From positions 1 to 43,972 of IMG/VR virus record IMGVR_UViG_3300005253_000028: a stretch of 43,972 nt of DNA. One strand, written 5' to 3'. A model generated the notes under the pieces. That model worked only from the letters and a program-made list of their open reading frames with translations. It did not search any database and was not told the origin of the DNA. A program made the translations under genes and the position numbers. This stretch comes from a virus. Numbering within the stretch: the stretch's first letter is position 1; each line of letters begins with the position of its first letter. Shown here piece by piece: positions 28,147 to 43,558 of this stretch.

Positions 28147-28180
28147 GGAGGCACTTTCATGGAACGTCAAGCACCAGAAA
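28136..28180 (+). repeat. Possible junction element, copy 0
   Basis: CAAGAGAGTAGGGAGGCACTT followed 15-17 bases later by GCACCAGAAAAAC closely resembles the 34168 copy in both end boxes and spacing. It spans the stop of the ASCH gene and the ATG (28159) of the next gene, so the right box is translated (APEK). It stands alone, 4.8 kb from the other copies, so chance similarity remains possible. Confidence 0.35.
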
Positions 28181-30998: not shown

Positions 30999-30999
30999 G

Positions 31000-31717: not shown

Positions 31718-31729
31718 GAATAATATTTA

Positions 31730-32614: not shown

Positions 32615-32623
32615 AGGAGACAC

Positions 32624-32713
32624 ATGAGGCTGACGAATTGGGGTAACGCTCCTGATAAAAGCGGGAAAATGACCCACGCCAGCGCCTTCCTGGAGCAACT
32701 GAGGCAGTTATGA
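32624..32713 (+). CDS. Mini-protein (29 aa)
   Basis: AAAGGAGACAC precedes the ATG and the stop overlaps the next start (TTATGA), so it behaves as a coupled gene. The sequence is polar with a short C-terminal helix (ASAFLEQLRQL). Too short to classify. Confidence 0.5.
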   Translation: MRLTNWGNAPDKSGKMTHASAFLEQLRQL

Positions 32714-33003
32714 CAGACTGGAAAGATACCGTGATGAAAGCAAATGATCTGTGCCTCAAGGTATGCCAGGACCATCGCACTCGCACACTTGAAGGAAAGA
32801 ACTGCGACGGCCTAGACTGTGAGGAGTGCCAACTAAAAGCCCAAGCCGGGATATCCTTTAAGGCTGGAGGGCAAGGGGTAGTGGATTGGGTAGTAAAGAA
32901 AATGCATCTCAACTTTGGGGACTGGTGGGAGTGGGAAAAGCAGATCAAAGCCTGGGGGCTGGTGGGCGATGGTGATAAAGAACCAACCGATTCAAGAGAT
33001 TAG
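32710..33003 (+). CDS. Hypothetical protein with four-Cys cluster (97 aa)
   Basis: The ATG overlaps the preceding stop. Cys residues at CLKVC, CDGLDCEEC could hold a zinc ion; the C-terminal half is Trp-rich (FGDWWEWEKQIKAWGL). The last five codons (DSRD plus stop) are supplied by the left box of the junction element at 32991. No family recognised. Confidence 0.55.
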   Translation: MTDWKDTVMKANDLCLKVCQDHRTRTLEGKNCDGLDCEECQLKAQAGISFKAGGQGVVDWVVKKMHLNFGDWWEWEKQIKAWGLVGDGDKEPTDSRD

Positions 33004-33035
33004 GGTTTTAACATCTGAGAGATATTCACCAGGAG
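32991..33035 (+). repeat. Junction element, copy 1
   Basis: TTCAAGAGATTAGGG at the left end and TATTCACCAGGAGG at the right, 34 bases from CAAGAG to CACCAG. The left box encodes the end of the upstream gene, and the right box runs straight into the ribosome binding site (AGGAGG) of the zinc-ribbon/HTH gene at 33043. AGAT (32996-32999) can pair with ATCT (about 33012-33015). Confidence 0.75.
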
Positions 33036-33042
33036 GTAACCC

Positions 33043-33315
33043 ATGACAACGTCAACCCTAGCGCGGTGTGAAAGGTGTGGAGGCAATCTATACCCTTATG
33101 AAGGAGGGATGAAGTGTCTCCAGTGTTCGAGGAGCTTTGGAGGGAAAGAGCCGGAGTCAAGGGTAGCGCCGAAGCATTACACCCGTGGGTTCAAGGAGAT
33201 GGTGGTAAAGCAGGCCTTGAGGGTAGGGAACTATGCGCTGGTGGGCAGGCAGTTGGGGGTAAGCGACAAGTTGGTACAGCACTGGGTAGCGGGGAGGCAT
33301 GATGGAAAACGATAG
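33043..33315 (+). CDS. Zinc-ribbon plus helix-turn-helix DNA-binding protein (90 aa)
   Basis: CERCGG and CLQCSRSF form a zinc ribbon at residues 9-30. The C-terminal half (YTRGFKEMVVKQALRVGNYA, LVGRQLGVSDKLVQHWVAG) is a transposase/Tc3-type helix-turn-helix. Likely a sequence-specific DNA binder and possible regulator, with no catalytic domain. It overlaps the next gene. It lies directly behind a junction element and could be tested as its binder. Confidence 0.75.
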   Translation: MTTSTLARCERCGGNLYPYEGGMKCLQCSRSFGGKEPESRVAPKHYTRGFKEMVVKQALRVGNYALVGRQLGVSDKLVQHWVAGRHDGKR

Positions 33316-33583
33316 ATTACTGAGTGATGAGGAGATGTGGGTTAAGGCCATTGTGAACCTTGATGAGCATCCCACTCTCGAAGACGAAAACCTGTATCCG
33401 GTTTATGGTTTCAGAGCTATCCGTGATGCCCAGGACGCCAAGAGCTTTCCGCTTGGGGTGCGTGAGGGAATCGAGGAAGTGTTCGATGCGCTAAAAGAAA
33501 TACTAGGAGAGGCCGAGGGTGAGGAACTGACAAAGAGGATCACAGATGGTATCGTAAAACAGCACAAGGAGCCAACGGAATGA
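33302..33583 (+). CDS. Hypothetical protein sharing the AQDxKSxPLG motif (93 aa)
   Basis: GGGGAGG precedes paired ATGs (33299, 33302). The centre reads IRDAQDAKSFPLGVREGIEE, matching ICQAQDTKSYPLGEEAGIAK in the protein at 37989, so the two are paralogues. The rest is acidic and helical. The function is unknown. The stop overlaps the methyltransferase-like start (ATGA). Confidence 0.62.
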   Translation: MENDRLLSDEEMWVKAIVNLDEHPTLEDENLYPVYGFRAIRDAQDAKSFPLGVREGIEEVFDALKEILGEAEGEELTKRITDGIVKQHKEPTE

Positions 33584-34161
33584 AGGTTCTTGTGGCCTGT
33601 GAGTTCTCCGGCGTGGTGCGTGACGCCTTTGCCCGTAGGGGCCATGATGCCTGGAGTTGTGACCTAGAGCCCTCTGAGGCGGGTGGCAGCCACCTCCAGT
33701 TCGATGTTAGAGATGCAATACTGGATTGGGATTGGGACTTGATGATAGCACACCCGCCATGCCCCTACCTGTCGCGGTCCGGTGTACGTTGGCTTTATGA
33801 GCAACCGGGCAGGTGGGAGTTGATGCGAGAAGCTGCCCAATTCTTTAAGGCTCTGTGGGAGGCGAACATCCCCAAGATAGCTATTGAGAATCCAATCCCT
33901 CACCGCTATGGGATAGAGCCCCTGGCCGGCAGATATTCTCAGATTATTCAACCCTGGCAGTTCGGGCATGGCGAGGTCAAGGCGACCTGTCTGTGGCTCA
34001 AGGGGTTGCCCTTGCTGGAGCCGACAAACGTGGTGGATGGCCGGGTGCCAAGGGTTCACTACGAGGGGCCGGGTAAGGACCGCTGGAAGAACCGGAGCCG
34101 AACCTACTACGGGATAGCCGAGGCGATGGCGGAGCAGTGGGGTGGGCCGGTAACAACGTAA
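33580..34161 (+). CDS. DNA cytosine methyltransferase-like protein (193 aa)
   Basis: MKVLVACEFSGVVRDAF with a following DLEP acidic turn resembles the SAM-binding strand-loop of class I methyltransferases. HPPCPYLS (58-65) supplies the Pro-Cys catalytic motif of C5-cytosine enzymes, and ENP at 103-105 the second catalytic motif. The protein is short and lacks a separate target-recognition domain, as in many phage homologues. It may modify phage DNA against restriction or act on a nucleotide substrate. Activity is not assured. Confidence 0.72.
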   Translation: MKVLVACEFSGVVRDAFARRGHDAWSCDLEPSEAGGSHLQFDVRDAILDWDWDLMIAHPPCPYLSRSGVRWLYEQPGRWELMREAAQFFKALWEANIPKIAIENPIPHRYGIEPLAGRYSQIIQPWQFGHGEVKATCLWLKGLPLLEPTNVVDGRVPRVHYEGPGKDRWKNRSRTYYGIAEAMAEQWGGPVTT

Positions 34162-34241
34162 TGGAAACTTTAAGAGCTACAGGAAGCACTTTGAGCAGTG
34201 GTAAGCACCAGAAATCCATGGTCATAGGGGTGATAAGGTGA
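34161..34241 (+). CDS. Possible 26-codon frame spanning junction element copy 2
   Basis: ATG 34161 overlaps the upstream TAA, and the frame ends in TGA overlapping the GTG start at 34238 (GTGA). The frame contains the whole junction element. An equivalent 26-codon frame occurs at the 34547 element. It could couple translation across the junction. The peptide sequences are unrelated in frame, so the peptide itself is unlikely to matter. Confidence 0.3.
   Translation: METLRATGSTLSSGKHQKSMVIGVIR
34168..34214 (+). repeat. Junction element, copy 2
   Basis: Left box CTTTAAGAGCTAC, right box TAAGCACCAGAAAT. GAGCT can pair with AGCAC (one A-A mismatch), then CACT with AGTG around a 6-base loop. It lies between the methyltransferase-like gene and DUF1064. 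Confidence 0.75.
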
Positions 34242-34546
34242 ACAAATACGGGGCGGTTAGAACATGGTCGCAACTCTGTGGTCGCACCTTTGACTCAAAG
34301 ACTGAGATGAGACGTGGCGAGGAGTTAGCATTGCTTGAAATAGCTGGGGAGATAAAAGACCTAGTTTACCAATATCGGGTTGCCTTATGTAAGAAGCCGA
34401 GGGTGACAATCACGATTGACTTCATGTATCGCGAAAAAGGCAAATATGTCTACGAGGATACAAAGGGCGTACTTACCCGCGAGTTTCGGGTGAAGATGGC
34501 TTGGCTTAAAGAGAAGTGGGGCGTGGAGGTGGTGCTAACGAAATGA
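34238..34546 (+). CDS. DUF1064 PD-(D/E)XK nuclease-like protein (102 aa)
   Basis: It begins MNKYGAVRT and continues with RTFDSKTEMRRGEELALLEI, then EIKDLVYQ and ITIDFMYREKGKYVYEDTKG: the DUF1064 order, with Glu, Asp and E-D-x-K residues of a PD-(D/E)XK core. Such phage proteins are thought to be small endonucleases, sometimes substituting for junction resolvases. GTG 34238 has ATAGGGGTGATAAG upstream. Confidence 0.82.
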   Translation: MNKYGAVRTWSQLCGRTFDSKTEMRRGEELALLEIAGEIKDLVYQYRVALCKKPRVTITIDFMYREKGKYVYEDTKGVLTREFRVKMAWLKEKWGVEVVLTK

Positions 34547-34627
34547 ATGCTTCAAGTGATAAGGGCATCACCTCATAGCAGGTATAGCACCAGAAAAACT
34601 CTGGATATAGAGGGGGGTATTACGTGA
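34547..34627 (+). CDS. Possible 26-codon frame spanning junction element copy 3
   Basis: ATG 34547 directly follows the DUF1064 stop and the frame ends in TGA overlapping GTG 34624. Same length and same GTGA junction as the frame at 34161, but a different reading frame relative to the conserved boxes. Probably a translational bridge if translated at all. Confidence 0.3.
   Translation: MLQVIRASPHSRYSTRKTLDIEGGIT
34549..34600 (+). repeat. Junction element, copy 3
   Basis: Left box GCTTCAAGTGATAAGG, right box TATAGCACCAGAAAAACTCT. GTGAT pairs perfectly with ATCAC, and ACCT with AGGT around a 6-base loop. The right flank AAAAACTCT is shared with copy 4 (36534). Confidence 0.78.
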
Positions 34628-34794
34628 GGACCATAGAATTAACCGAAAAAGAATGCCGATACCTGAACAGGCTATTAAGTTCATGGCTGGGCCTTTCATC
34701 GAAGTGGACACCGAAGCCGCTGGCGAGGTTTAGGCTCTACGAGGTCAAACACAAGTTGGAGTGGGCTAAGAAACACGGGGTATTACGTGGATAG
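34624..34794 (+). CDS. Small basic protein (56 aa)
   Basis: GAGGGGGGT lies upstream of GTG 34624. The product (RTIELTEKECRYLNRLLSSW, LYEVKHKLEWAKKHG) is basic and helical and may bind nucleic acid. No family recognised. It overlaps the next gene by eight bases. Confidence 0.58.
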   Translation: MRTIELTEKECRYLNRLLSSWLGLSSKWTPKPLARFRLYEVKHKLEWAKKHGVLRG

Positions 34795-35017
34795 GGAATG
34801 TTATGACGAAATCCAGCATGAGATCGACGGGCTCAATCATGTCTGCGAGGTTTGCGGGAGTCACGGGGACTTTCGAGGGATTCAACGGCATCACAAAATC
34901 TTGAAGAAAATGGGCGGGCGCAAGGGCAGGGCTAAGGAGTTGATTGAAGACCCATCTAACATCGAGTGGCTTTGCGGGTTTCATCATTCTCAAAGGCATG
35001 GAATTCGTGAGCGATGA
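34787..35017 (+). CDS. Small HNH endonuclease (76 aa)
   Basis: CEVCGSHG, then QRHHKILKKMGG, NIEWLCGFHHSQRH forms a compact HNH fold: Cys pair, HH, Asn and the C-x2-HH zinc knuckle. The acidic N-terminus is short. It could nick DNA or act as a free-standing mobile nuclease. GTG 34787 overlaps the preceding gene. Confidence 0.75.
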   Translation: MDRECYDEIQHEIDGLNHVCEVCGSHGDFRGIQRHHKILKKMGGRKGRAKELIEDPSNIEWLCGFHHSQRHGIRER

Positions 35018-35050
35018 GAGGATTGTGGGCACAGGGTTCATGGCTGAAAC

Positions 35051-35079
35051 TTGCAATCTACCACCACATAGAGTATACT
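35051..35079 (+). promoter_or_regulatory. Promoter upstream of the HTH-HNH gene
   Basis: TTGCAA (35051-35056), 17-base spacer, TATACT (35074-35079). A start near 35086 leaves a short leader containing TAGGGGG before ATG 35099. Having its own promoter fits a mobile endonuclease gene. Confidence 0.7.
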
Positions 35080-35098
35080 CTTTGGTAGGGGGTAGAAG

Positions 35099-35659
35099 AT
35101 GCAAGGTAGAAAAGCGATATACACAGCAGACCAGTTAAGGGAAATGTATTGGGAACAAAACATGACGACCACTGAAATATCCAAGCTCTTTGGTGTGGGG
35201 ATGAGTGCAGTTGCTCACGCTATGAACCGCCTGGGTGTCCCGAAGCGCTCTCATGGGGAGCAATTAAGGAAACAATATGAGCTGGGCAAGATAACGGCAC
35301 CGCTTACTGGCCGAGCCATGGTGAATTGGCGTGGTGGCCGGATGACTAAAGCGGGGTATATCTACGAGAAGCTACATGAGAGTCATCGCTTCTGGTGTAT
35401 GGCCCGAAAGGGTGGCGGACATCAACACGGATATGCCGCGCAGCATCGCCTCGTTATGGCGGAACATCTGGGCCGGCCATTGGTTACTGAGGATATTGTG
35501 CATCACCTCAACGGGCAAAGGGCCGACAATAGGTTGGAAAACTTGTCGCTGGTAGATCGCAGAACACATCCGACATGGGCTTTCCAACACGCTATGCAAG
35601 AGAGGATACGGACGCTGGAGGCCCACATTGCCAATATTGCACAACTCAAGATGGTATAG
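35099..35659 (+). CDS. HTH plus HNH endonuclease (186 aa)
   Basis: Residues 20-50 (TTTEISKLFGVGMSAVAHAM) form a helix-turn-helix that would select the DNA target. Residues about 115-165 (QHRLVMAEHLGR, IVHHLNGQRADNRLENLSLV) are an HNH_3 nuclease core closely similar to the gene at 15143. The C-terminus is a coiled-coil. Likely a free-standing homing endonuclease. Confidence 0.85.
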   Translation: MQGRKAIYTADQLREMYWEQNMTTTEISKLFGVGMSAVAHAMNRLGVPKRSHGEQLRKQYELGKITAPLTGRAMVNWRGGRMTKAGYIYEKLHESHRFWCMARKGGGHQHGYAAQHRLVMAEHLGRPLVTEDIVHHLNGQRADNRLENLSLVDRRTHPTWAFQHAMQERIRTLEAHIANIAQLKMV

Positions 35660-35718
35660 TGCTGGCGGTGCCTATACCGGCATCATTTTGCTCAGGAATT
35701 GAAGGGATAAGGAGAGCA

Positions 35719-36546
35719 ATGCAAAAGACTGATATCGAATACTTGGATATGACTTGGAATCCCATGACCGGCTGTAATCACTGGAAGTATGGTGGGCCTT
35801 GCGGTGGGGGCGGCAGGGACTTCCGGTGCTGGGCCATGGGCATCGCCAACAGGTTCAAGAAAAACTACCCCAAGGGCTTTGAGCCGGACTTACGCCTGGA
35901 CCGCATCATGGAACCAACTTTGTATAGCCCACCCCTACGGATCGGTGTCAGCTTTATGGGCGACCTATTCTGCGATTGGGGGAAGGAGCCATCGGAGGCA
36001 ATTGTTGGCACCTTAGCCGAAGAAGCCCGGATGCTCATAAAGAGCACGATCAGCGATTGCCCCCAGCACACCTTCCTGTTTCTGACGAAGGCCCCGTGGA
36101 ATCTTCACAAGTGGTCCCCCTGGCCGGCCAATGCCTGGGTAGGTGCCACTGCAACAAGTTATCGGGCATTTGTTCATGCGTGTGGTGATCTGGGGGCATT
36201 GCATCATAGGGATGGGGCCATGACCTACATATCCTTTGAGCCCTTGTTATCTTGGGATAGTAACCCAGGATTTACACTGCCTTGGCTGAATGGCAATATT
36301 GGATGGGTCATTATCGGGGCAGCCCGAGGCAAGATGCCGAAACTGGAGTGGGTGAAGAATATCGTGAATGCTGCGGATGAAGCTGATATCCCCGTGTTCC
36401 TTAAGGACAATCTCAAGCCGCTGTTCGCCAACATCGAGGAACCGGCCTGGATGGTGGGCTGGAAGAATGTGCCGGGGGAGATGCGGCAGGAATACCCGCG
36501 GGTGGGGGGCGACGGTGACCAACCAAAGGCTAATTCAAGAGCTTAG
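35719..36546 (+). CDS. DUF5131 (phage Gp37/Gp68-like) protein (275 aa)
   Basis: It begins DIEYLDMTWNPMTGCNHWKYGG, followed by spaced Cys residues (PCGG ... FRCWA). After this come RIGVSFMGDLFCDW, HTFLFLTKAP, TYISFEPLLS and WVIIGAARG: the DUF5131 TIM-barrel signature related to radical-SAM enzymes. Three N-terminal Cys could hold an Fe-S cluster. The substrate is unknown. ATAAGGAGAGC precedes ATG 35719. Its last codons are supplied by the left box of a junction element. Confidence 0.82.
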   Translation: MQKTDIEYLDMTWNPMTGCNHWKYGGPCGGGGRDFRCWAMGIANRFKKNYPKGFEPDLRLDRIMEPTLYSPPLRIGVSFMGDLFCDWGKEPSEAIVGTLAEEARMLIKSTISDCPQHTFLFLTKAPWNLHKWSPWPANAWVGATATSYRAFVHACGDLGALHHRDGAMTYISFEPLLSWDSNPGFTLPWLNGNIGWVIIGAARGKMPKLEWVKNIVNAADEADIPVFLKDNLKPLFANIEEPAWMVGWKNVPGEMRQEYPRVGGDGDQPKANSRA

Positions 36547-36584
36547 GGTGGTAAGAGCGCACGGCTATTCACCAGAAAAACTCT
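36534..36584 (+). repeat. Junction element, copy 4
   Basis: Left box TTCAAGAGCTTAGGGTGG encodes the end of the DUF5131 gene; right box CTATTCACCAGAAAAACTCT. GAGCT pairs with AGCGC apart from one mismatch. CAAGAG-to-CACCAG spacing is 34 bases, as in copy 1. Confidence 0.77.
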
Positions 36585-36611
36585 AGGAAAAGAGCTAAAG
36601 GGATAAGGGAG

Positions 36612-36640
36612 TTGAAAGGTGAAGCCGTGTGTGGTATAAT
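36612..36640 (+). promoter_or_regulatory. Near-consensus sigma70 promoter for the HNH gene
   Basis: TTGAAA (36612-36617), 17-base spacer, TATAAT (36635-36640). Transcription should start near 36647, at the 5' edge of the folded leader. Confidence 0.85.
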
Positions 36641-36645
36641 AAGAT

Positions 36646-36714
36646 ATGCCCTTCGGGATGAGCGGAGGCCTGGATACTCATCCTATCTGGGCCAACGTTA
36701 AACCTGGAGGGCAT
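36646..36714 (+). ncRNA. Structured 5' leader that can mask the ribosome binding site
   Basis: ATGCCC (36646-36651) pairs with GGGCAT (36709-36714), which overlaps the ribosome binding site GGAGGG (36706-36711) of the gene at 36720. GGATGAG (36656-36662) pairs with CTCATCC (36677-36683). GGCC in that hairpin loop (36667-36670) can pair with GGCC at 36690-36693, making a pseudoknot. This is a riboswitch- or thermosensor-like layout controlling translation. I cannot match it to a known family; association with an HNH gene recalls HEARO RNAs, but the length is too small. Confidence 0.6.
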
Positions 36715-36719
36715 TTATT

Positions 36720-37151
36720 ATGGATAATTTCTGGTCACGAGTGCTGAAAACGGACACCTGTTGGCTGTGGCGGGGGGTGACATCGCAGGGTTATGGCAGG
36801 AGCCCGATTAGGTGTGATGGCAAATACATTTATGCGCTAGCTCACAGGGTTGCCTACGAGGAATTGGTTGGCCCTATTCCAGAAGGTTTGCAACTAGATC
36901 ATCTCTGCCGGGTGAGGAACTGTGTGAACCCAGCGCATCTTGAGGCTGTTACGTCAGGGGAAAACACTCGGAGGGGGGACACAGGAAAGAATAATGCTAT
37001 CAAGACTCATTGCCCTAAAGGGCATCCCTACGATGAGGAGAATACCCGCATCCTCCCGAATGGTTGGAGGGTGTGCAAAGAATGTGCACACATCCACCAC
37101 AACAACCATTACTGGCGTAAGAAGTTATCCCGAAACTTGTGGGAGGCGTGA
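36720..37151 (+). CDS. HNH endonuclease with its own promoter and leader (143 aa)
   Basis: Residues 40-80 (LAHRVAYEELVG, LQLDHLCRVRNCVNPAHLEA) hold the HNH catalytic set (His42, Asp60-His61, Asn70, His73), typical of phage homing endonucleases. A C-terminal zinc-knuckle (HCPKGHPYD, CKECAH) follows. A strong promoter and folded leader precede it, similar in logic to the delayed expression control of T4 homing endonucleases. The stop lies by the next start. Confidence 0.86.
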   Translation: MDNFWSRVLKTDTCWLWRGVTSQGYGRSPIRCDGKYIYALAHRVAYEELVGPIPEGLQLDHLCRVRNCVNPAHLEAVTSGENTRRGDTGKNNAIKTHCPKGHPYDEENTRILPNGWRVCKECAHIHHNNHYWRKKLSRNLWEA

Positions 37152-37606
37152 TGGAAAGGATTTACAAAACTACAGAGTCTCAGAGGGCGGCATCTTTACG
37201 CTACTTTGGAACTCCGGCAGGGAAAGAGGCCCAAAGGAGGTACTATACATCAGAAAAGGGGAGGGCGGCTAGGAACCAGCGTCGGAACTCAATCGCGGGG
37301 AAAGCGAATGAGAAGCGGTATCGGGATTCTGATAAGGGTAGGGAAACTAGGCGCAATTATGAGCTTGCTCATCCCTACTCGTATCGGAGGCACACATCTC
37401 GCAAGGTACGGTTTACATTGGAGGTGCCCCTTGATGTGGAGAAGGATAATGGCATTGTTCGTGTTAGTTCGTCGATGTTTCCTGAATTGCAGGTATCGGC
37501 TAATTCAATCATCCACGCCTTGGCTTTAGCAAAGTTAGCTTCAGAGACGCATATTAAGGCCTTGTTTATGGGTGAGGGGCCGGGTAACACCGTAGCGACC
37601 GTCTAA
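37151..37606 (+). CDS. Basic repeat protein with Gly-Lys/Gly-Arg motifs (151 aa)
   Basis: Residues 8-75 repeat a short unit rich in S-x-KGR/AGK-x-x-RRRY (TPAGKEAQRRYYTSEKGRAA, SDKGRETRRNYE), a DNA-binding repeat often seen beside or inside phage HNH proteins. The C-terminal half is a compact alpha/beta domain (FTLEVPLDVEKDNGIVRVSS). It may be the targeting partner of the HNH protein, whose stop it overlaps. No catalytic motif seen. Confidence 0.65.
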   Translation: MERIYKTTESQRAASLRYFGTPAGKEAQRRYYTSEKGRAARNQRRNSIAGKANEKRYRDSDKGRETRRNYELAHPYSYRRHTSRKVRFTLEVPLDVEKDNGIVRVSSSMFPELQVSANSIIHALALAKLASETHIKALFMGEGPGNTVATV

Positions 37607-37646
37607 GAGCTACAGATAATGAGCTCGTACAGGTAAGCACCAGAGC
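37602..37646 (+). repeat. Junction element, copy 5
   Basis: Left box TCTAAGAGCTAC contains the stop codon of the upstream gene; right box GGTAAGCACCAGAG. GAGCT pairs perfectly with AGCTC (37622-37626), but the second hairpin is not clear in this copy. Confidence 0.72.
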
Positions 37647-37673
37647 TATTGGGAAAGGATAAGGGGGTGAGTG

Positions 37674-37922
37674 ATGTGTAGGCAACCAGCAGAAGTATTC
37701 CATCCAGGCGTATATATCAAAGAGGAATTGGAGGCAAGGGGATGGTCGCCGTCTGTGTTGGCGATGGTGATGGGCTACCCGCTCGATAAGCTGACAGCGA
37801 TCCTTGAGGGCAAGCGGCGGGTCACGGTATCTGTGGTTGCGGGTCTGACACGGGCCTTTGGGACTAGCGAGATGTTCTGGCTGAACCTCCAGCGTATCTA
37901 TGATGGCGGGGGGCGGCGGTAA
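37674..37922 (+). CDS. higA: HigA-like XRE helix-turn-helix protein, orphan (82 aa)
   Basis: FHPGVYIKEELEARGWSPSV, then ILEGKRRVTVSVVAGLTRAFGTSEMFWLNLQ matches HigA/VapI antitoxins closely over its full length. No HigB toxin is encoded next to it, so it is an orphan. It may be a repressor of phage genes or an antitoxin against a host toxin. ATG 37674 with AAGGGGGTGAGTG upstream. Confidence 0.82.
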   Translation: MCRQPAEVFHPGVYIKEELEARGWSPSVLAMVMGYPLDKLTAILEGKRRVTVSVVAGLTRAFGTSEMFWLNLQRIYDGGGRR

Positions 37923-37924
37923 CA

Positions 37925-37980
37925 TCTAAAGCTCATTCACGGGATTAAGGCCCTGCACACGTAGAGATATTCACCAGAGA
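37925..37980 (+). repeat. Junction element, copy 6 (long form)
   Basis: Left box TCTAAAGCTCATTC, right box GAGATATTCACCAGAG. The middle is about 10 bases longer than in other copies and contains GGG/CCC. The right box merges into the ribosome binding site GAGAGGAGAG of the gene at 37989. Confidence 0.65.
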
Positions 37981-37988
37981 GGAGAGCG

Positions 37989-38318
37989 ATGGTAGGAGGA
38001 AGAAGGCGGGCTGAAAGTAACCTATATGGAGGGCCAAACTGGGATTTTCACGATAATAGCTCTATCCGTGAGGCTCGGGCAAAGGAGAGCGAAAACTTTG
38101 AAAGGGGAAACAGCATGAGCGACAGGCTATTAACCTGGAAGGAACTTGTTAAACTAGATAGTGATAAAGCTATTTGCCAAGCCCAGGACACCAAGAGCTA
38201 TCCACTAGGGGAGGAAGCCGGTATTGCAAAGGGAAGGGCTGAGGTAGTGGCTTTCATAGACAAAGAATACAGCTGGATTATACCTCGGGAACAGCTCAAG
38301 GAATGGGGGCTGGGGTGA
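37989..38318 (+). CDS. Hypothetical protein with AQDxKSxPLG motif (109 aa)
   Basis: The C-terminal part (ICQAQDTKSYPLGEEAGIAK, then a helix) is paralogous to the protein at 33302. The N-terminal 42 residues are Arg/Asn-rich and low in structure. ATG 38115 with GAAAGGGGAAAC upstream is a good alternative start giving a 67-residue protein that aligns with its paralogue. Last gene of the rightward block. Confidence 0.58.
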   Translation: MVGGRRRAESNLYGGPNWDFHDNSSIREARAKESENFERGNSMSDRLLTWKELVKLDSDKAICQAQDTKSYPLGEEAGIAKGRAEVVAFIDKEYSWIIPREQLKEWGLG

Positions 38319-38330
38319 CAAAGTAGGATA

Positions 38331-38379
38331 GCTTTAAGAGCAACGGGAGTCACTTGCCCAAAGGTTACGCACCAGAAAT
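38331..38379 (+). repeat. Junction element, copy 7
   Basis: Left box GCTTTAAGAGCAACGGG, right box TTACGCACCAGAAAT. ACTT pairs with AGGT (one G-T pair) around GCCCAA. This copy sits between convergent genes and is the only full copy not upstream of a start codon. A small GAGA-loop hairpin follows at about 38388-38402. Confidence 0.7.
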
Positions 38380-38418
38380 AACCCCTGAGAGATCAAGGAC
38401 CGGGGCTTTCGTTAGAGG

Positions 38419-38580
38419 TTAGTCACCGTAGCAGTCATTCCGAAAGCTATTGATATCGAAGTGGTCAACGTTATCTTGCAGCATCTTCCCGAAGTCCTCA
38501 ACTAAGCCACTGAATCCGTCCATGCCACTACCATACGAGCACAAGATTTTGGCTATTCTGATGCAATCCAATACATCCAT
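38419..38580 (-). CDS. Hypothetical protein (53 aa)
   Basis: GGAAGGAGGGGAATAAG precedes the ATG at 38580, so the longer upstream frame is rejected. The product is acidic and helical (DVLDCIRIAKILCSYGSG, VEDFGKMLQDNVDHFD). Last gene of the leftward operon. No family recognised. Confidence 0.6.
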   Translation of the reverse strand: MDVLDCIRIAKILCSYGSGMDGFSGLVEDFGKMLQDNVDHFDINSFRNDCYGD

Positions 38581-38581
38581 C

Positions 38582-38641
38582 TTATTCCCCTCCTTCCAGC
38601 CAATGTCCGCACGTACCACAGTCGGGGCAGGTTATTTTCAT
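38582..38641 (-). CDS. Cys-rich mini-peptide (19 aa)
   Basis: The ATG overlaps the upstream stop (ATGA) and GGAGGCC lies before it. The peptide (KITCPDCGTCGHWLEGG) has three Cys and a His, enough for one zinc site. Its 3' end contains the ribosome binding site of the next gene. It may be a true micro-protein or only a coupling device. Confidence 0.45.
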   Translation of the reverse strand: MKITCPDCGTCGHWLEGGE

Positions 38642-38784
38642 TGGGCCTCCTTGTTGGTCTTTTCATCCTCCAGTTGTTGCCGTCTTTCCTCAATGACCAA
38701 TCGCCCCCAGGCCACAGGGTCACCAGCAGTTAGCCTATCTAAGAGGGTGAGCCTTTCTTCTTCTGTCACTCGTATGTTGGCCAT
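38638..38784 (-). CDS. Small helical protein (48 aa)
   Basis: GAAAGGAAAC precedes ATG 38784. The sequence is a charged amphipathic helix (VTEEERLTLLDRLTAGD, VIEERRQQLEDEKTN). No family recognised. Coupled to the next gene. Confidence 0.58.
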   Translation of the reverse strand: MANIRVTEEERLTLLDRLTAGDPVAWGRLVIEERRQQLEDEKTNKEAQ

Positions 38785-38822
38785 TATGTTTCCTTTCTGG
38801 TTCTCACCGTTTCATCGAGGTG

Positions 38823-39143
38823 TTAACTGTCGCTCTTAGAGTGATCTTCAAAGTGCTCCTTAGCATGGAAGGCGCACCAATACTCCCCGCAGTAGAGACA
38901 TCGGTAGCCATTCTCGGTGAGATTGATGGTTTCCCTGCAACCCACTTGATGGCAACGTGGGTTATGGAGCTTTAACCTTTCGGTGTACTCGTTGACCTTG
39001 AGGGCTATCTTTAGTAGATTGCTTTGAAGTTCCATCTCACGAGCCTCCAGCCGCTCGACCTCAGACAGCAAATGCTCCATTGCCTCGACAAGCGGATGTC
39101 CTTTGAACGCCTGAAGCCTTGCCCGTATTTCTCGCTTGTCCAT
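38823..39143 (-). CDS. Coiled-coil protein with C-terminal zinc fingers (106 aa)
   Basis: Residues 1-60 form a coiled-coil (ALQAFKGHP-like start, HLLSEVERLEAREMELQSNL). Residues 64-100 contain CHQVGC, CLYCGEYWC and two His, resembling a B-box or treble-clef zinc site. TAGGAGGAACGTC precedes the ATG and comes from the leader repeat joined to junction element copy 8. The function is unknown. Confidence 0.65.
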   Translation of the reverse strand: MDKREIRARLQAFKGHPLVEAMEHLLSEVERLEAREMELQSNLLKIALKVNEYTERLKLHNPRCHQVGCRETINLTENGYRCLYCGEYWCAFHAKEHFEDHSKSDS

Positions 39144-39152
39144 GACGTTCCT

Positions 39153-39216
39153 CCTAACAAAGTTAAACTAGCTTCAAGAGATTGTGGTATCACTTGCCGT
39201 ATAGTCTGCACCAGGA
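39153..39216 (+). repeat. Junction element, copy 8, in the 5' leader of a leftward gene
   Basis: Plus-strand left box CTAGCTTCAAGAGATTG and right box TCTGCACCAGGA, with GAGAT/ATCAC and ACT/AGT helices. Bases 39153-39173 (TAACAAAGTTAAACTAG) are an extension shared with copy 9 and, reversed, copy 11. It precedes the minus-strand start at 39143, so it is antisense to the mRNA. Confidence 0.75.
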
Positions 39217-39219
39217 CTC

Positions 39220-39393
39220 CTACGCTTCCCGGCAATGGTCATTAGTCAGGGCAATACAATGCACATCTTTCAGATGCGGCCCGATATGAGCGCCACAAAA
39301 GGACTTCCCGCAATCCAGGCATTTGGCGTCGGGGTTCCTTGGGCAGAATATCTTATCATCCGCGAGGCAATCTGGGCAATGTATTATATTCAT
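39220..39393 (-). CDS. Zinc-finger protein (57 aa)
   Basis: GGGGAGGGAAATCAC precedes the ATG. IIHCPDCLADDKIFC, CLDCGKSFCGAHIG and HLKDVHC give eight Cys/His ligands, probably two zinc sites of treble-clef or B-box kind, akin to the C-terminus of the protein at 38823. Probably a protein- or nucleic-acid-binding factor. Confidence 0.65.
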   Translation of the reverse strand: MNIIHCPDCLADDKIFCPRNPDAKCLDCGKSFCGAHIGPHLKDVHCIALTNDHCREA

Positions 39394-39435
39394 TGTGATT
39401 TCCCTCCCCTTTATGTTTATCCCAAGGGCCTACGC

Positions 39436-39609
39436 TTACGGCTTATCCTTTAGTACGATATTGTATATACTTTCCTTGTAATAGTTGCCTTCATCGTCTT
39501 GGTGGCTTGTTTCCTCTTGAACGTCAAAGTCCCGAATGATAACGCTCACACCTTGAGGAAGTTGGAGGACTTCGGCCATTCCGTCTCGAACCTCGATTAT
39601 AACGTCCAT
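39436..39609 (-). CDS. Small acidic beta-rich protein (57 aa)
   Basis: Starts MDVIIEVRDGMAEVLQLPQG, then SVIIRDFDVQEE: alternating strands with an acidic loop, as in short phage proteins that begin with an I/V-rich strand and a D-F-D turn. The ATG follows GGGGAATAG. Downstream of its stop is a 16-base fragment (39420-39435) identical to the 3' end of the zinc-ribbon gene at 40962. Confidence 0.6.
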   Translation of the reverse strand: MDVIIEVRDGMAEVLQLPQGVSVIIRDFDVQEETSHQDDEGNYYKESIYNIVLKDKP

Positions 39610-39610
39610 T

Positions 39611-39766
39611 CTATTCCCCTTTCTTATCCAGCGGCCTACGTATTCGTTCCTGGTCCCAGTAATAGGAGTTGCATTTTGGGCACCGGCCCCCTGTTTTGGC
39701 AGGGTTTCGCGGGTACCATTCGTGGAAACAGCGTTTACAATGTCTCTGCTTTATGATCTTGACCAT
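39611..39766 (-). CDS. Zinc-ribbon mini-protein, paralogue 2 (51 aa)
   Basis: VKIIKQRHCKRCFHEWYPR, then CPKCNSYYWDQERIRRPL. It is closely similar to the gene at 40962 in protein and DNA, and more distantly to 25776. The ATG overlaps the upstream stop (TAATG), as in the paralogue. Zinc ribbon with a conserved YWDQER tail, probably a DNA- or RNA-polymerase-binding or other host-directed factor, but unproven. Confidence 0.7.
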   Translation of the reverse strand: MVKIIKQRHCKRCFHEWYPRNPAKTGGRCPKCNSYYWDQERIRRPLDKKGE

Positions 39767-39993
39767 TAGTTGCCCTCCGTGAACTCAGCGACAAGCTCAG
39801 ACCTACCACCGCCGCTGCTGCCGCTTGTCCGGTAAACTTGCACCTCATCTTTTCCGGTTGTCTCGTTGTGGGTGAGGTAGACATGAGCCCCCACATGCCA
39901 GCCTCGTAGGTGACCGCTAATGCCGGTCCTCTTGCCGCCCAACCTTGAAACTGGCCCCCTGCTTCCCTGTATGTCTGCTCTGAAGTGTGCCAT
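39766..39993 (-). CDS. Conserved small phage protein (75 aa)
   Basis: AAAGGAGAATC precedes ATG 39993. The sequence (MAHFRADIQGSRGPVSRLGG, SGHLRGWHVGAHVYL, DEVQVYRTSGSSGG) belongs to a widespread group of short phage proteins with the same HFR-x-IQG-x-RG and GW-x-x-G motifs. The role is unknown; beta-rich, basic, possibly nucleic-acid binding. Confidence 0.72.
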   Translation of the reverse strand: MAHFRADIQGSRGPVSRLGGKRTGISGHLRGWHVGAHVYLTHNETTGKDEVQVYRTSGSSGGGRSELVAEFTEGN

Positions 39994-40000
39994 GATTCTC

Positions 40001-40028
40001 CTTTCGTTTTTCCCGTTCCCCATGTTAG
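40001..40028 (-). repeat. Leader repeat B, copy 1
   Basis: This 28-base sequence is identical to 40472-40499. On the minus strand it reads from CTAACATGGGGAACGGG to AAACGAAAG and runs into the ribosome binding site of the gene starting at 39993. It contains an ATG that opens a frame joined to the gene, but the real start has a better ribosome binding site. Confidence 0.85.
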
Positions 40029-40035
40029 GGGAAAG

Positions 40036-40278
40036 TTAGCCCCTCGGGTTTTGTCCGACAGATTCGCAAAACTCAGCCCATGATGGGAAATCATGGCCAG
40101 TCTCGATCTCCTCCGGCCAAGCGGCTATCTTCCCGCCATCCTCAAGTTGGATATGGTACATTGGGCCCACTTCGGGGTCACGCTCCGCATCCGTCAGTTC
40201 TCCTAGGACCGTGAACCCCAGGCCCTCCAGGTGAGCGTACTGCTCGTATGGCGTGGTAAAGGTTTTTCTAAACTCCAT
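40036..40278 (-). CDS. Hypothetical protein (80 aa)
   Basis: TTAGGAGGAAAATC precedes the ATG. The product is acidic, with aromatic and Pro-rich segments (YEQYAHLEGLGFTVLGELTD, MYHIQLEDGGKIAAWPEEI) that suggest a small alpha/beta domain. No family recognised. Confidence 0.62.
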   Translation of the reverse strand: MEFRKTFTTPYEQYAHLEGLGFTVLGELTDAERDPEVGPMYHIQLEDGGKIAAWPEEIETGHDFPSWAEFCESVGQNPRG

Positions 40279-40304
40279 GATTTTCCTCCTAATAAAGCTT
40301 GTTT

Positions 40305-40466
40305 CTAGCCCTCTGATCCTTCGACATCTTCTGGGTGGCCGGTTACTCGTTTTATGATTGGACCGCGGGGATCACAGTGGTTACAAAGGACTCGGTAATC
40401 ATCGGGGTCGCCAGTGACAGTTGCCATCCCACCGCAGTCTGTGCATATAATAATCTGTTTCATCAT
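40305..40466 (-). CDS. Zinc-ribbon protein (53 aa)
   Basis: AAAGGGGGG precedes two ATGs (40466, 40463). CTDCGG and CNHCDP about 24 residues apart form a zinc ribbon; the tail is acidic. Unlike the YWD family it lacks the Tyr-Trp-Asp tail. Confidence 0.62.
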   Translation of the reverse strand: MMKQIIICTDCGGMATVTGDPDDYRVLCNHCDPRGPIIKRVTGHPEDVEGSEG

Positions 40467-40471
40467 CCCCC

Positions 40472-40499
40472 CTTTCGTTTTTCCCGTTCCCCATGTTAG
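40472..40499 (-). repeat. Leader repeat B, copy 2
   Basis: Identical over 28 bases to 40001-40028 and likewise placed directly upstream of a leftward start (40463/40466). The coding sequences that follow are unrelated, so the leader itself was duplicated. Confidence 0.85.
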
Positions 40500-40511
40500 A
40501 GAGTTCTGGTT

Positions 40512-40706
40512 CTAGCCCTCAATGGGGGTGTTTCCTGAATCTCTTAGAGCGGCTTGGTAGCCGATTTCATAACCGACCTGTATCCACTGGTCTTCGATGA
40601 GCTCCTGTAAATAATGTGGGCTTAGGGAACTGATGCGTGCCCTCAGGACTTTTATACGATTTTCCCAATACGTTGTTGTTTTGCGTTCCACTTTCTTGGT
40701 CCTCAT
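40512..40706 (-). CDS. Small basic protein (64 aa)
   Basis: ATG 40706 overlaps the upstream stop and follows GGTTAGGGCGACC. The N-terminal region is Lys/Arg/Thr-rich, the middle a helix (NRIKVLRARISSLSPHYLQE), the end Gly/Tyr/Ile-rich (WIQVGYEIGYQAAL). Possibly nucleic-acid binding. No family recognised. Confidence 0.58.
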   Translation of the reverse strand: MRTKKVERKTTTYWENRIKVLRARISSLSPHYLQELIEDQWIQVGYEIGYQAALRDSGNTPIEG

Positions 40707-40882
40707 GGTCGCCCTAACCGCAACGCATCTTCCGGGGTGTAACCGGCTTGCAGTAGTCTGCGCCATGCCTGGTGGTAGTCCTGCTCACGGATGTGCCTGA
40801 GATCGTTGGAGGTATCAATTCCGCTCTTGAATAACTCATCACAGGCTCGCCAGTATTGTCGGATTTCATAGGTATCGTTCAT
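40703..40882 (-). CDS. Small helical protein (59 aa)
   Basis: TAGGAGGAACGTTG precedes ATG 40882, and this leader belongs to junction element copy 9. The product is helical and basic (EIRQYWRACDELFKSGID, YHQAWRRLLQAGYTPEDAL). No family recognised. It overlaps the next gene by four bases. Confidence 0.6.
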   Translation of the reverse strand: MNDTYEIRQYWRACDELFKSGIDTSNDLRHIREQDYHQAWRRLLQAGYTPEDALRLGRP

Positions 40883-40892
40883 CAACGTTCCT

Positions 40893-40959
40893 CCTAACTA
40901 AGTTAAACTAGCTTCAAGTGATAAGGGCTGCACCTCATTGCAGGTTTAGCACCAGAAAC
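40893..40959 (+). repeat. Junction element, copy 9, in the 5' leader of a leftward gene
   Basis: Plus-strand left box GCTTCAAGTGATAAGGG and right box TTTAGCACCAGAAAC; ACCT/AGGT pair around CATTGC as in copy 3. Bases 40893-40913 are the same extension as in copy 8. It separates the zinc-ribbon gene 40962 from the start at 40882. Confidence 0.78.
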
Positions 40960-40961
40960 CT

Positions 40962-41102
40962 TCATCCCAAGGGCCTACGCCTACGCTCCTGGTCCCAGTA
41001 GTACGAGTTGCAACGGGGGCACCTGACAGGCCTCCCAGGCTGCTTAGGATACCATTCGTGGGGGCATCTGAGGCAATGGCGTTTCTTTATGATCTTGACC
41101 AT
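40962..41102 (-). CDS. Zinc-ribbon mini-protein, paralogue 3 (46 aa)
   Basis: VKIIKKRHCLRCPHEWYPK, then CPRCNSYYWDQERRRRPLG. Paralogue of 39611 (about two thirds identical by eye) and of 25776. Its ATG overlaps the preceding stop (TAATG). The conserved YWDQER tail marks one phage-specific family with three members in this genome. Confidence 0.72.
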   Translation of the reverse strand: MVKIIKKRHCLRCPHEWYPKQPGRPVRCPRCNSYYWDQERRRRPLG

Positions 41103-41584
41103 TAGGCGATCTCCTCCATCGCCTCAAGCTCGGCATCCGAGAATAGCCGGCAGAGGTTAGCGTACTCGTCCTTAGTGGCATTGTAAGCCCTCTCAGCCCG
41201 CCTGCTGTCCGTGTCCTCGCCGGACTCGGCGCAGAAGTCTTCAAAGGTGCCCTGGTCGTGCTTAGTGAGGCACGAGAGTACATCGTAGGCGGTGGGCTTC
41301 GCATATTTAGGGTTATGCTCCCAGTCCTGGGTTGCCTTGCCTCGCGAGACGCCCTTCGTGGGGTCACCGTAGAGGCAGAATGGTCCGGACCGCTCGACCG
41401 ACTGGCCGAAGTTGAAGCAATAGGAGCGCCAACGGTTTGGGGCGTAGTTTCTGACCAGTGTTATGGTGTAGATATCGCGGTCCATCGTGTCCTCGGGGAA
41501 GTGGAGCCCTTGGCCTGCATACTCCACCCGCAGCTCAGTGTTTGTACTCTCCAGAAAGTCCGTTCCCTGCTTCTCGTAGTCCAT
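41102..41584 (-). CDS. Conserved phage protein (160 aa)
   Basis: DFLESTNTELRVEY, RDIYTITLVRN, SYCFNFGQSV, PTAYDVLSCLTKHDQGTFED, FCAESGEDTDSRRAERAY and RLFSDAELEAMEEI are the ordered motifs of a very widespread group of phage proteins of unknown function. Length is normal. GGAGAATC precedes the ATG. It is probably an early accessory protein; its stop overlaps the zinc-ribbon start. Confidence 0.8.
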   Translation of the reverse strand: MDYEKQGTDFLESTNTELRVEYAGQGLHFPEDTMDRDIYTITLVRNYAPNRWRSYCFNFGQSVERSGPFCLYGDPTKGVSRGKATQDWEHNPKYAKPTAYDVLSCLTKHDQGTFEDFCAESGEDTDSRRAERAYNATKDEYANLCRLFSDAELEAMEEIA

Positions 41585-41599
41585 GATTCTCCTTCCGGC

Positions 41600-41893
41600 C
41601 TATCTCATCAGTACCGAGTGGCCAACCCCGGCAGAGCCCCGGATGGGGCTTTCGGCTAGTTTCTCCTGCATCGCTCTATATATTGCCTGGAGTGCTGCTA
41701 GGGCTGCTGCCTTCGTATAGAACGGGTCGAGGTAGGTATAGCGGTCCCAGCCCTCATATCGGGCTTGCCAGAGAGTAGCCCCCACCTTTTCATCTCCGTT
41801 ATCATCCTCCACCTTATAGGAGTAAACAACCCATTGCTCATCTTCACTCCTGTACAATCCTGGGAAGATTCTTTTGAGTTTGAGTTGTTTCAT
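41600..41893 (-). CDS. Hypothetical protein, first gene of the leftward operon (97 aa)
   Basis: AAGGGAGGGGAC precedes the ATG, 26 bases after the predicted transcription start. The N-terminal 60 residues (LKLKRIFPGLYRSEDEQWVV, TLWQARYEGWDRY) resemble a small beta-barrel; a helix follows. No family recognised. Confidence 0.65.
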   Translation of the reverse strand: MKQLKLKRIFPGLYRSEDEQWVVYSYKVEDDNGDEKVGATLWQARYEGWDRYTYLDPFYTKAAALAALQAIYRAMQEKLAESPIRGSAGVGHSVLMR

Positions 41894-41925
41894 GTCCCCT
41901 CCCTTATTTATTCCCTGTGCGTACT

Positions 41926-41954
41926 ACATTAACCTATGTTGGAGGGTTTGTCAA
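41926..41954 (-). promoter_or_regulatory. Near-consensus leftward promoter
   Basis: On the minus strand TTGACA (41949-41954), 17-base spacer, TAATGT (41926-41931). Transcription should start near 41919 and run through all leftward genes to 38419. It faces away from the terminase operon. Confidence 0.82.
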
Positions 41955-42076
41955 GGGGTTTGGGGACCATTTTGCCGGGCCTGCCCAAAATGGCAATATC
42001 GAAGCTAAAACGGTATAACCTGGAGGTGTCTATCACCCCCGGGGGGTGGGGGGTGTCGGTGCCCATTGGAGGGATA

Positions 42077-42120
42077 TTCAAGAGATTCAGGCGGTAACAA
42101 TGTGGGCTATTCACCAGAAA
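42077..42120 (+). repeat. Junction element, copy 10
   Basis: Left box TTCAAGAGATTCAGGCGG, right box GGCTATTCACCAGAAAC; one base shorter than copies 1 and 4. The helix is poor in this copy (ATT/AAT only). It lies between the divergent leftward promoter and the small-terminase gene. Confidence 0.72.
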
Positions 42121-42126
42121 CACAAC

Positions 42127-42155
42127 TTGACATCCTCCTCTATAGGGTCTACCGT
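42127..42155 (+). promoter_or_regulatory. Possible rightward promoter for the packaging operon
   Basis: Perfect TTGACA (42127-42132) with a weak TACCGT (42150-42155) after 17 bases, immediately right of junction element copy 10. A weak -10 would fit a promoter needing an activator. Another candidate, TGGCAA-17-TATAAC, lies at about 41991-42019. Confidence 0.38.
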
Positions 42156-42203
42156 AAAGTATCCCCCGTCACGCCCAAGGGGTGGGGGGGATCAGGGAGG
42201 CCA

Positions 42204-42566
42204 ATGGTACAGCTCCTACAGAAACAGGAAACCTTTTGTCTCGAATACTTCCGCACAGGCAATGCCACACAGTCGGCCATCACGGCCGGCTACTCTCAGC
42301 ACACGGCCGAAGTCATAGCTTATGAGAACCTTAGAAAACCTCGGATAATCGAGCGAATGGCCGAGCTAAACGAAGCTATAGCAACTCCATTGATAGCTGA
42401 TGTCCGGGAGCGCAAAGAGATTCTTTCCACGATAGCGCGAGACAAGAACACCGAACGCACCCGGGCCATTGACTTGTTGAACAAGATGGAGGGGGCATAC
42501 CCACCGCAGCAGGTTTTGGCCCTTGGGGACGTTACCCTTCATATCAAGTTTGACAAGGAGGGCTGA
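42204..42566 (+). CDS. terS: Terminase small subunit
   Basis: ATG 42204 follows AGGGAGG. LLQKQETFCLEYFRTGNATQ, SAITAGYSQHTAEVIAYENL then a long helix is the Terminase_2 signature: N-terminal helix-turn-helix for packaging-site recognition, then an oligomerisation helix. The upstream in-frame extension (from 42066) runs through the junction element and is not supported by a ribosome binding site. The large subunit starts 2.4 kb downstream across the circular junction. Confidence 0.88.
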   Translation: MVQLLQKQETFCLEYFRTGNATQSAITAGYSQHTAEVIAYENLRKPRIIERMAELNEAIATPLIADVRERKEILSTIARDKNTERTRAIDLLNKMEGAYPPQQVLALGDVTLHIKFDKEG

Positions 42567-42973
42567 TGCCGTACAAAGACCCAGCGAAGCAACGTGAGGC
42601 CGTGTGCCAGGCGGTGGCGAAGCACCGGGGCAAAGGTATTACAGAGGCACCGCAAGGTATTACACAGACCGGCAAGGATGTAATACCCGATGTAATACCC
42701 GTTAGACCCGCCAATCAGATAATCCACCATAACCCGCCCCTGGCCGCTGATGTGGTGGCAAACTTCAAGCCTGAGCCCCGGACCAGTGGTTATGCCCGGT
42801 TTGGCCCCCAGCGGCCGCTCAAGGCCTCAGAGACCGCCCTGGTGTCCCCATCCATCCCAGAGCACAAGCGCCGGCGTGGAGGGCTTAAAATGGGCTTTGA
42901 ACCGTGGAGGGTGCATGAAGGCCCAACGCCCGAGCTGGACGCTGATGGTAATGTGATACCAGAGGGCGACTGA
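42566..42973 (+). CDS. Hypothetical basic protein (135 aa)
   Basis: The TGATG junction couples it to the small terminase. The first 20 residues (YKDPAKQREAVCQAVAKHRG) resemble the short basic motif that begins many phage DNA-associated proteins. The middle contains two GIT and two VIP repeats encoded by the inverted DNA repeats at 42635-42699. The rest is Pro-rich and probably disordered. Confidence 0.6.
   Translation: MPYKDPAKQREAVCQAVAKHRGKGITEAPQGITQTGKDVIPDVIPVRPANQIIHHNPPLAADVVANFKPEPRTSGYARFGPQRPLKASETALVSPSIPEHKRRRGGLKMGFEPWRVHEGPTPELDADGNVIPEGD
42635..42699 (+). repeat. Inverted pairs of GGTATTACA within coding sequence
   Basis: GGTATTACA occurs at 42635-42643 and 42656-42664; its exact reverse complement TGTAATACC occurs at 42679-42687 and 42691-42699. 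The four sites could form one or two hairpins or bind a dimeric protein. Because they keep the frame (GIT, GIT, VIP, VIP), duplication within the gene is also possible. The position next to the small terminase makes a packaging or regulatory site worth testing. Confidence 0.8.
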
Positions 42974-43116
42974 TGGACAAAGAGGAGACCGCGCTGACCC
43001 CGGAGCTTATTGAGGAGGCGAAACAGGCGGCGCTTGTGGCCTTCAAGGTGCTCACTGCTAAGCAAAGGCCGCAGGCAAAGGCAGTCCCGTGGGGGCGGAG
43101 GGGGGTACCCTTTTAG
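42973..43116 (+). CDS. Small basic protein (47 aa)
   Basis: TGATG-coupled to the preceding gene. An acidic N-terminal helix (KEETALTPELIEEAKQAALV) is followed by a Lys/Arg/Pro tail. No family recognised. Bases 43117-43190 downstream contain only the ribosome binding site of the next gene. Confidence 0.6.
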   Translation: MDKEETALTPELIEEAKQAALVAFKVLTAKQRPQAKAVPWGRRGVPF

Positions 43117-43190
43117 AGGGACTCGCATACAACTCGGTCCAGTTTCCCAGATTTTTCCCCAACTATTTTCAGGGTAATGGAGGGTTAATT

Positions 43191-43418
43191 ATGGCTTGGG
43201 ATGATGCGTTGGTTTTTAGTGACGGAACCTTTAGGGCGAAGACTCGGAGGGAGAAGTTGTGCGAACTGTTCCACCTGAGCCCCGAGGAGGTTGATGTGCA
43301 GGAGGCGAAGATCAAATCCGAGGTTATGCTGGACTACGTCCGGAGAAGCGATGCCTATGTCCAGTTCATCGAAGAAGCCCACGAGAAAGCGGCCACTAGC
43401 ACCTTATTCTTTGGCTGA
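43191..43418 (+). CDS. Small helical protein (75 aa)
   Basis: ATG 43191 follows GGAGGG. The product is helical and charged (TRREKLCELFHLSPEEVDVQ, VRRSDAYVQFIEEAHEKA), probably a small packaging-region accessory. The longer frame upstream lacks a ribosome binding site. TGATG-coupled to the next gene. Confidence 0.6.
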   Translation: MAWDDALVFSDGTFRAKTRREKLCELFHLSPEEVDVQEAKIKSEVMLDYVRRSDAYVQFIEEAHEKAATSTLFFG

Positions 43419-43501
43419 TGAAAACCTACTGGACACATACGGGAATCTTTTTATTGGTCTTCGGGCTGGTGATCTGGATAGGGAGCTGTTTCTCTGAGTG
43501 A
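43418..43501 (+). CDS. Single-pass membrane micro-protein (27 aa)
   Basis: MKTYWTHTG, then a hydrophobic helix (IFLLVFGLVIWIGS) ending CFSE. The IGSC sequence could be a lipobox, but the peptide would be nearly all signal, so a simple membrane peptide is likelier. A second tiny membrane protein lies at 509. Together they may be lysis-related. Confidence 0.5.
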   Translation: MKTYWTHTGIFLLVFGLVIWIGSCFSE

Positions 43502-43507
43502 TATAAT
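43499..43507 (+). promoter_or_regulatory. Extended -10 promoter before the RyR gene
   Basis: TG-A-TATAAT (43499-43507) matches an extended -10 perfectly, but no -35 box is visible. Transcription would begin near 43514, just before the reversed junction-element leader and the gene at 43559. Confidence 0.55.
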
Positions 43508-43516
43508 GAGGTGAAA

Positions 43517-43552
43517 CCCTTATCACTTGAAGCTAGTTTAACTTTGTTAGGG
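43517..43552 (-). repeat. Junction element, copy 11 (partial, reversed)
   Basis: The plus strand reads CCCTTATCACTTGAAGC, then TAGTTTAACTTTGTTAGG: the reverse complement of the left box and extension of copies 8 and 9. The CACCAG end is missing. As with copies 8 and 9, the extension runs into the ribosome binding site of the adjacent gene (43559). Confidence 0.72.
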
Positions 43553-43558
43553 GGACCG

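Follow-up and report, generated by a model that had tools for sequence, protein, structure and literature searches.

Several described kinds of repeated site bear comparison with the elements reported here. Cluster A stoperators are short (13 bp), asymmetric sites that are oriented with transcription and bound by the phage repressor, and the attC sites of integrons lie at the 3' end of a gene, with conserved boxes flanking a variable middle and with complementary R and L boxes that give a hairpin. In cluster K mycobacteriophages, SAS/ESAS are present in many copies at gene junctions of the non-structural part of the genome and are phage-group-specific; the ESAS, about 46-47 bp long, has two conserved 17-bp inverted-repeat arms around a variable spacer and stands before a start codon (PMC3203893, PMC11373665), and the ESAS of Adephagia contains a putative SigA-like promoter (PMC11373665). 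Microbacterium phages of clusters EC, EF, EG, and EI carry motifs of 13 to 30 bp in small gaps, mostly among non-structural genes, whose function is unknown and whose sequence is cluster-specific; the EC and EG motifs are placed 14-30 bp before start codons, and the EC copies all have one orientation (PMC7302621). The 17-bp dispersed repeats of cluster O are inverted-repeat sites, about a third of which are inside genes, and deletions have been attributed to recombination between their copies (PMC4351075). The PeSL cassettes of T4-type phages combine a promoter with a stem-loop and have proposed roles in expression and genome shuffling; a motif of the haloarchaeal HGTV-1 is described as their analogue (PMC3950731). 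Phage accessory genes turn over fast, and how new ones are joined without damage to their neighbours is an open question. In the phage described here, the seams are a recognisable repeated sequence, some copies of which are mosaic and some of which encode the ends of unrelated proteins.

The window considered throughout is the whole of one IMG/VR virus record (IMGVR_UViG_3300005253_000028, positions 1 to 43,972, i.e., 43,972 nucleotides). Its first 399 bases recur at the end of the record (1-399 = 43574-43972), so the unit is about 43.6 kb long and looks circular. Over 43% of its length, the TerL is 59% like its counterpart in Methanosarcina virus MetMV, and the helicase-like protein matches that virus at 38%; the major head protein is nearest to those of bacterial phages, e.g., phiV10 and Tyrion. 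The virion block runs from 1 to about 27.4 kb and includes a single ORF of 2951 codons (4306-13161, + strand) without a Pfam match. For 27424-43573 the gene set was chosen by hand. This part of the window also holds a type II hammerhead ribozyme (41594-41657, - strand), which scores 40.2 bits against Rfam RF02276 (gathering score 37) and sits at the 3' end of leftward gene 41600-41893. A small leftward gene for a zinc-ribbon-like protein is present in duplicate (39633-39769 and 40961-41105; 74-79% DNA identity over two stretches). A further small protein with a zinc ribbon and a helix-turn-helix-like part, a candidate DNA binder, is encoded at 33043-33315 (+ strand) beside the element copy e1; its weak match to IS1 transposase (E 0.0094) is far below the curated cut-off.

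At least 14 copies of an element of about 70 bases are present in the window, at accessory-gene junctions. All eleven copies listed in the first-pass annotation are there; three of the listed starts (39153, 40893, and 37925) belong to the same copies but mark the left part, the cores being at 39173, 40913, and 37935. A profile HMM, built from the listed window copies and two copies in a second IMG/VR record, L082 (the full contig of one first met as L075), added three copies in the window (28132-28176, + strand; 38794-38840 and 40503-40548, - strand) and one in L082. With three copies in L082 (x1, x2, and x3), there are 17 copies in all, plus a fragment in L082 (x4). When each was held out in turn, 16 of the 17 were recovered at E <= 0.0065 in 1.5 Mb; e6 (37935) was missed in this search, so that its assignment depends chiefly on the right box and on where it lies. 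The reversed-sequence control of the profile gave no match better than E 0.5. A strict pattern for the pair of boxes described below matched the window nine times, a count that simulated sequences did not approach (mean 0.077, maximum 2, in 300 first-order Markov sequences matched for dinucleotide content). As had been claimed from the first look at the sequence, the virion block is free of the elements (0 copies in 1 to about 27.4 kb). The window copies are given below with span, strand, and core (box B to box C).

e14 (new): 28120..28181, + strand; core 28132-28176; overlaps the stop of the 27424-28146 gene and the start of the next gene; held-out E 1.6e-4
e1: 32968..33034, + strand; core at 32991; box B holds the stop codon of the 32710-33003 gene
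e2: 34145..34216, + strand; core at 34169; 3' of a methyltransferase-like gene (33580-34161)
e3: 34529..34597, + strand; core at 34551; right half like that of e9
e4: 36512..36579, + strand; core at 36534; supplies the last ~12 codons of a DUF5131 protein
e5: 37580..37646, + strand; core at 37602; stop of the 37139-37606 gene in box B; held-out E 0.0065
e6 (weakest): 37918..37980, + strand; core at 37935; 3' of a HigA-like gene
e7: 38312..38379, + strand; core at 38333; convergent junction
e13 (new): 38794..38858, - strand; core 38794-38840; 3' end of the leftward gene 38823-39143
e8: 39151..39218, + strand; core at 39173; antisense, 5' end of the leftward gene 38823-39143
e12 (new): 40502..40558, - strand; core 40503-40548; in the final codons of the leftward 40512 gene
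e9: 40891..40958, + strand; core at 40913; antisense, 5' end of leftward genes; a mosaic, left as in e8/e11 and right as in e3
e10: 42056..42121, + strand; core at 42077; a 35-codon ORF (41990-42097) ends within it; the terminase small subunit follows
e11: 43494..43555, - strand; core at 43531; antisense; left as in e8/e9, right side matching L082 x1; right box degenerate

Most of the conservation in the element, which is about 65-75 bp long, lies in box B (TTYAAGAGnT..GG) and box C (GCACCAGAAA); a third part, to their left, is weak. In the alignment, the left part is often G/C-rich and then TAAC, (GG/CC)TAACAAAG; the TAAC-like left part falls in differing frames of these genes, so its conservation is not due to the stop codon. 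Boxes B and C stand at a nearly fixed 37-38 bp from each other; the gap stays within 36-39 in 15 of the 17 copies, the outliers being e11 (35) and x2 (32). The middle, first described as variable, does vary in sequence (only about 50% alike between copies, recent duplicates aside) but hardly in length. The elements had also been called structured, which did not hold up: RNAalifold found no consensus structure on either strand, the single-strand DNA folds of most copies resemble those of shuffles, boxes B and C are neither complementary nor inverted repeats and give no attC-like hairpin, and no family in Rfam 15 reached its gathering score at any element. A lysine riboswitch match abutting e5 (15.6 bits, E 2.8, gathering score 30) was taken as chance. 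The base before box B covaries with the base before box C, which we considered as pairing and rejected, as it follows two subfamilies instead. A reverse-strand intrinsic terminator beside box C was also rejected, the stem being found only at e3, e4, and e14, and weakly at e7. Sigma-70 sites show no excess (14 in the region vs. 13.6 expected), and none is within a core. The region's only near-perfect sigma-70-like site (TTGAAA, 17, TATAAT, with TG before it; 11/12) lies at 36612-36640 on the + strand, about 34 bases past e4.

The elements respect gene boundaries. None of the 14 cores is inside a gene, whereas a mean of 9.24 is expected under random placement (0 was never seen in 20000 trials), and the cores are 24% coding as against 85% for the stretch 27424-43573. 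Gaps of at least 40 bases number 24, and half of them (12) carry an element. The first-pass annotation had the copies directly upstream of accessory genes; the junctions stand, but a more exact description puts the copies at the 3' terminus of the gene upstream, often in its last codons. Eleven copies (e1-e7, e10, and e12-e14) touch the 3' end of a gene and share its strand, with the stop codon in box B (e1, e4, and e14), at its start (e5), just before it (e2, e3, e6, and e7), or near box C (e12). The exceptions, e8, e9, and e11, point the other way: they are antisense to the gene that follows, and their left part touches its ribosome-binding site. Two blocks are bracketed by inverted pairs with their left parts inward, 38794-39218 (e13/e8, enclosing one gene, 38823-39143) and 40502-40958 (e12/e9, enclosing two genes); no clear target duplication was seen at these blocks by eye. 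L082 has a gene X likewise within an inverted pair (x1/x2) and a 151-codon gene partly so (x3/partial x4).

Comparison of the copies with each other and with one relative suggests that genes have been swapped at element seams. The left halves of e8, e9, and e11 are 92-96% identical and their right halves 47-63% (all-pair mean 50%), while e3 and e9 are 87% alike in their right halves and 29% in their left halves (all-pair mean 34%). The copy e9 thus consists of a left half of one kind and a right half of another, with the switch near box B. The right side of e11 runs into sequence homologous to x1 of L082 and to the small ORF beyond it. The series small ORF, x1 (reversed), gene X, x2, gene Y of L082 corresponds to small ORF, e11 (reversed), gene Y in the window, which implies that gene X was gained or lost exactly between elements. 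Gene gain or loss at the elements, which the first-pass annotation proposed to look for, is seen between relatives in one case; with one other record carrying elements, it is a single event. The homology to the small ORF in L082 starts right after box C of the partial copy x4, and the window counterpart of that place has a different gene and no element.

Identity between the window and L082 terminases is only 33%, which points to exchange between well-separated genomes or to long divergence since. Window and L082 are 95.7% identical over 623 nt overall, including a 100% identical stretch that is coextensive with the window's 399-nt terminal overlap. A stretch common to two viruses is an assembly branch point, and closure of the circle there is therefore uncertain; we would like to note that the circular closure may rest on this shared repeat. 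The left contexts of e11 and x2 are both within contigs irrespective of closure, and the assignment of the right sides is less sure.

Protein ends provide a second line of comparison. Homologues of the DUF5131 protein from three lineages (L089, L117, and L013/L014, the last two looking alike) align only to around RQEYPR, 11-14 residues short of the end of the window protein, whose tail (VGGDGDQPKANSRA) is encoded by e4. The unrelated 32710-33003 protein has a similar tail (VGDGDKEPTDSRD), encoded by e1. With element-encoded tails on two unrelated proteins, the elements seem to have been joined onto pre-existing genes.

In searches for further carriers, a scan of IMG/VR with four element patterns gave L082 as the sole true match, the patterns being exact, so that diverged copies elsewhere in the collections scanned would be missed. 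Alignment-based searches yielded 66 terminase relatives and 48 loci, none of which carries the elements besides L082. The helicase-like protein alone and TerL alone as queries found no relatives, a blastn query with one copy (e9) had no match among phages and plasmids, and a TerL scan of bacterial and archaeal genomes led to a Methanoperedens contig without the elements. Repeats in the other relatives are mostly coding; the exception is a junction motif in L119 (TTTTAGTTTGGA..TTG), which is SAS-like in lying just before four putative start codons (3722, 3992, 5315, and 5528). Since this motif is a different one, junction repeats differ even among relatives.

We think that the copies are best read as cis-acting sites at gene seams that a protein would recognise as duplex DNA and that would double as recombination points for accessory genes, with a probability of about 0.5. 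Two boxes at a near-fixed distance, together with the lack of structure, suggest recognition of the element as double-stranded DNA by a phage or host protein, presumably in a regulatory role. As the same site is found at many accessory seams, joining, exchange, and loss of genes may take place at the elements as well, by what would be homologous or annealing recombination; the lambda-exonuclease-like gene at 29635-30288 is a candidate part of such machinery. Against this reading, middles that are about 50% alike are a poor substrate for homologous recombination. The first-pass annotation had offered cassette boundaries, binding sites, or RNA control elements as possible roles. Binding sites are likely in view of the boxes and their spacing. 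Cassette boundaries gain from the mosaic copies, the L082 gene bracketed by elements, and the tails on unrelated proteins, with a single element-bearing relative in the collections searched. RNA control finds no support, there being neither a consensus fold nor an Rfam match and 3 of the 14 copies being antisense.

The nearly fixed box spacing, and the limitation of the copies to junctions in the non-virion part, would also be expected of purely regulatory sites, such as operators of a stoperator-like or ESAS-like type at which a phage repressor or activator acts; the mosaics would then be products of ordinary phage recombination unrelated to that role. Helix-turn-helix genes are nearby (HigA-like, 37671-37922, and the zinc-ribbon/HTH-like 33043-33315). 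We regard this explanation as possible but rather unlikely, given that sigma-70 sites are not in excess, that orientation to genes is mixed, and that copies are found at a convergent junction (e7) and within last codons. It is improbable that the elements are instead linear motifs bound in the transcript, for processing, antitermination, or translation control. Most copies are indeed sense and lie between the 3' end of one gene and the next gene, and in e2 and e7 box B, read as its reverse complement (GCTCTTAAAG), resembles boxA of lambdoid nut sites. However, e8, e9, e11, and L082 x1 and x3 run antisense to the gene after them, the folding and Rfam searches speak against a transcript motif, and in most copies it is the antisense strand that reads like boxA; since the boxA-like reading fits well in e2 and e7 only, we rejected it as a general account of box B and kept it as a lead.

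A dedicated cassette system, in which the elements are sites of a site-specific recombinase (cf. attC) or terminal repeats of small mobile cassettes, would account for their position at the 3' ends of genes and for the inverted copies that bracket e13-gene-e8, e12-genes-e9, x1-X-x2, and x3-gene-partial x4. Yet the scans, which covered part of the window proteins, gave no firm integrase, recombinase, or transposase, the boxes lack complementarity and a hairpin, and target duplications were not clear by eye, which leaves such a system quite doubtful. The variant of integron-like phage cassettes, where each accessory gene or small block would move with its element by an enzyme that is unrecognised or acts in trans, is just as doubtful.

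Returning from the reading as protein-recognised sites at recombination seams to the described systems, the elements are unlike cluster A stoperators in their length (65-75 bp) and mixed orientation. They are like attC in being at gene 3' ends with two boxes around a variable middle, and unlike it in having no complementary boxes and no hairpin; no integrase was found in the scanned part of the genes, and one could act in trans. Of the terminal inverted repeats and target duplications of transposons or MITEs, the window shows inverted pairs around two blocks and, by eye, no duplication. Cluster O repeats are likewise dispersed, but the cores here are never inside genes and are not inverted repeats, and the Microbacterium motifs share the intergenic, non-structural placement but are shorter.

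As with SAS/ESAS, the copies are limited to non-structural genes (0 in 1-27.4 kb, 14 beyond). In contrast to SAS/ESAS, which are imperfect inverted repeats with a 4-14 bp spacer, the boxes here are non-complementary and 37-38 bp apart, without a consensus fold; there is no sigma-70 excess in the region and no such site within the cores; and instead of a sense position before the start codon, e8, e9, and e11 are antisense, e7 is at a convergent junction, and most copies reach into the end of the gene upstream. PeSL are repeated junction elements, as here, but the early promoter and stem-loop of PeSL were not found in the window elements; of shuffling of the PeSL type, the window shows mosaic copies and one gained or lost gene, from a single relative. 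If the elements are indeed seams, gene exchange in this phage group would be readable from element sequences; if they are regulatory only, they would add a larger two-box junction repeat from an uncultivated group beyond the actinobacterial phages, to which most of the cited repeats belong. Although they miss at least one testable defining feature of each, the elements resemble SAS/ESAS and PeSL in place and perhaps in function.
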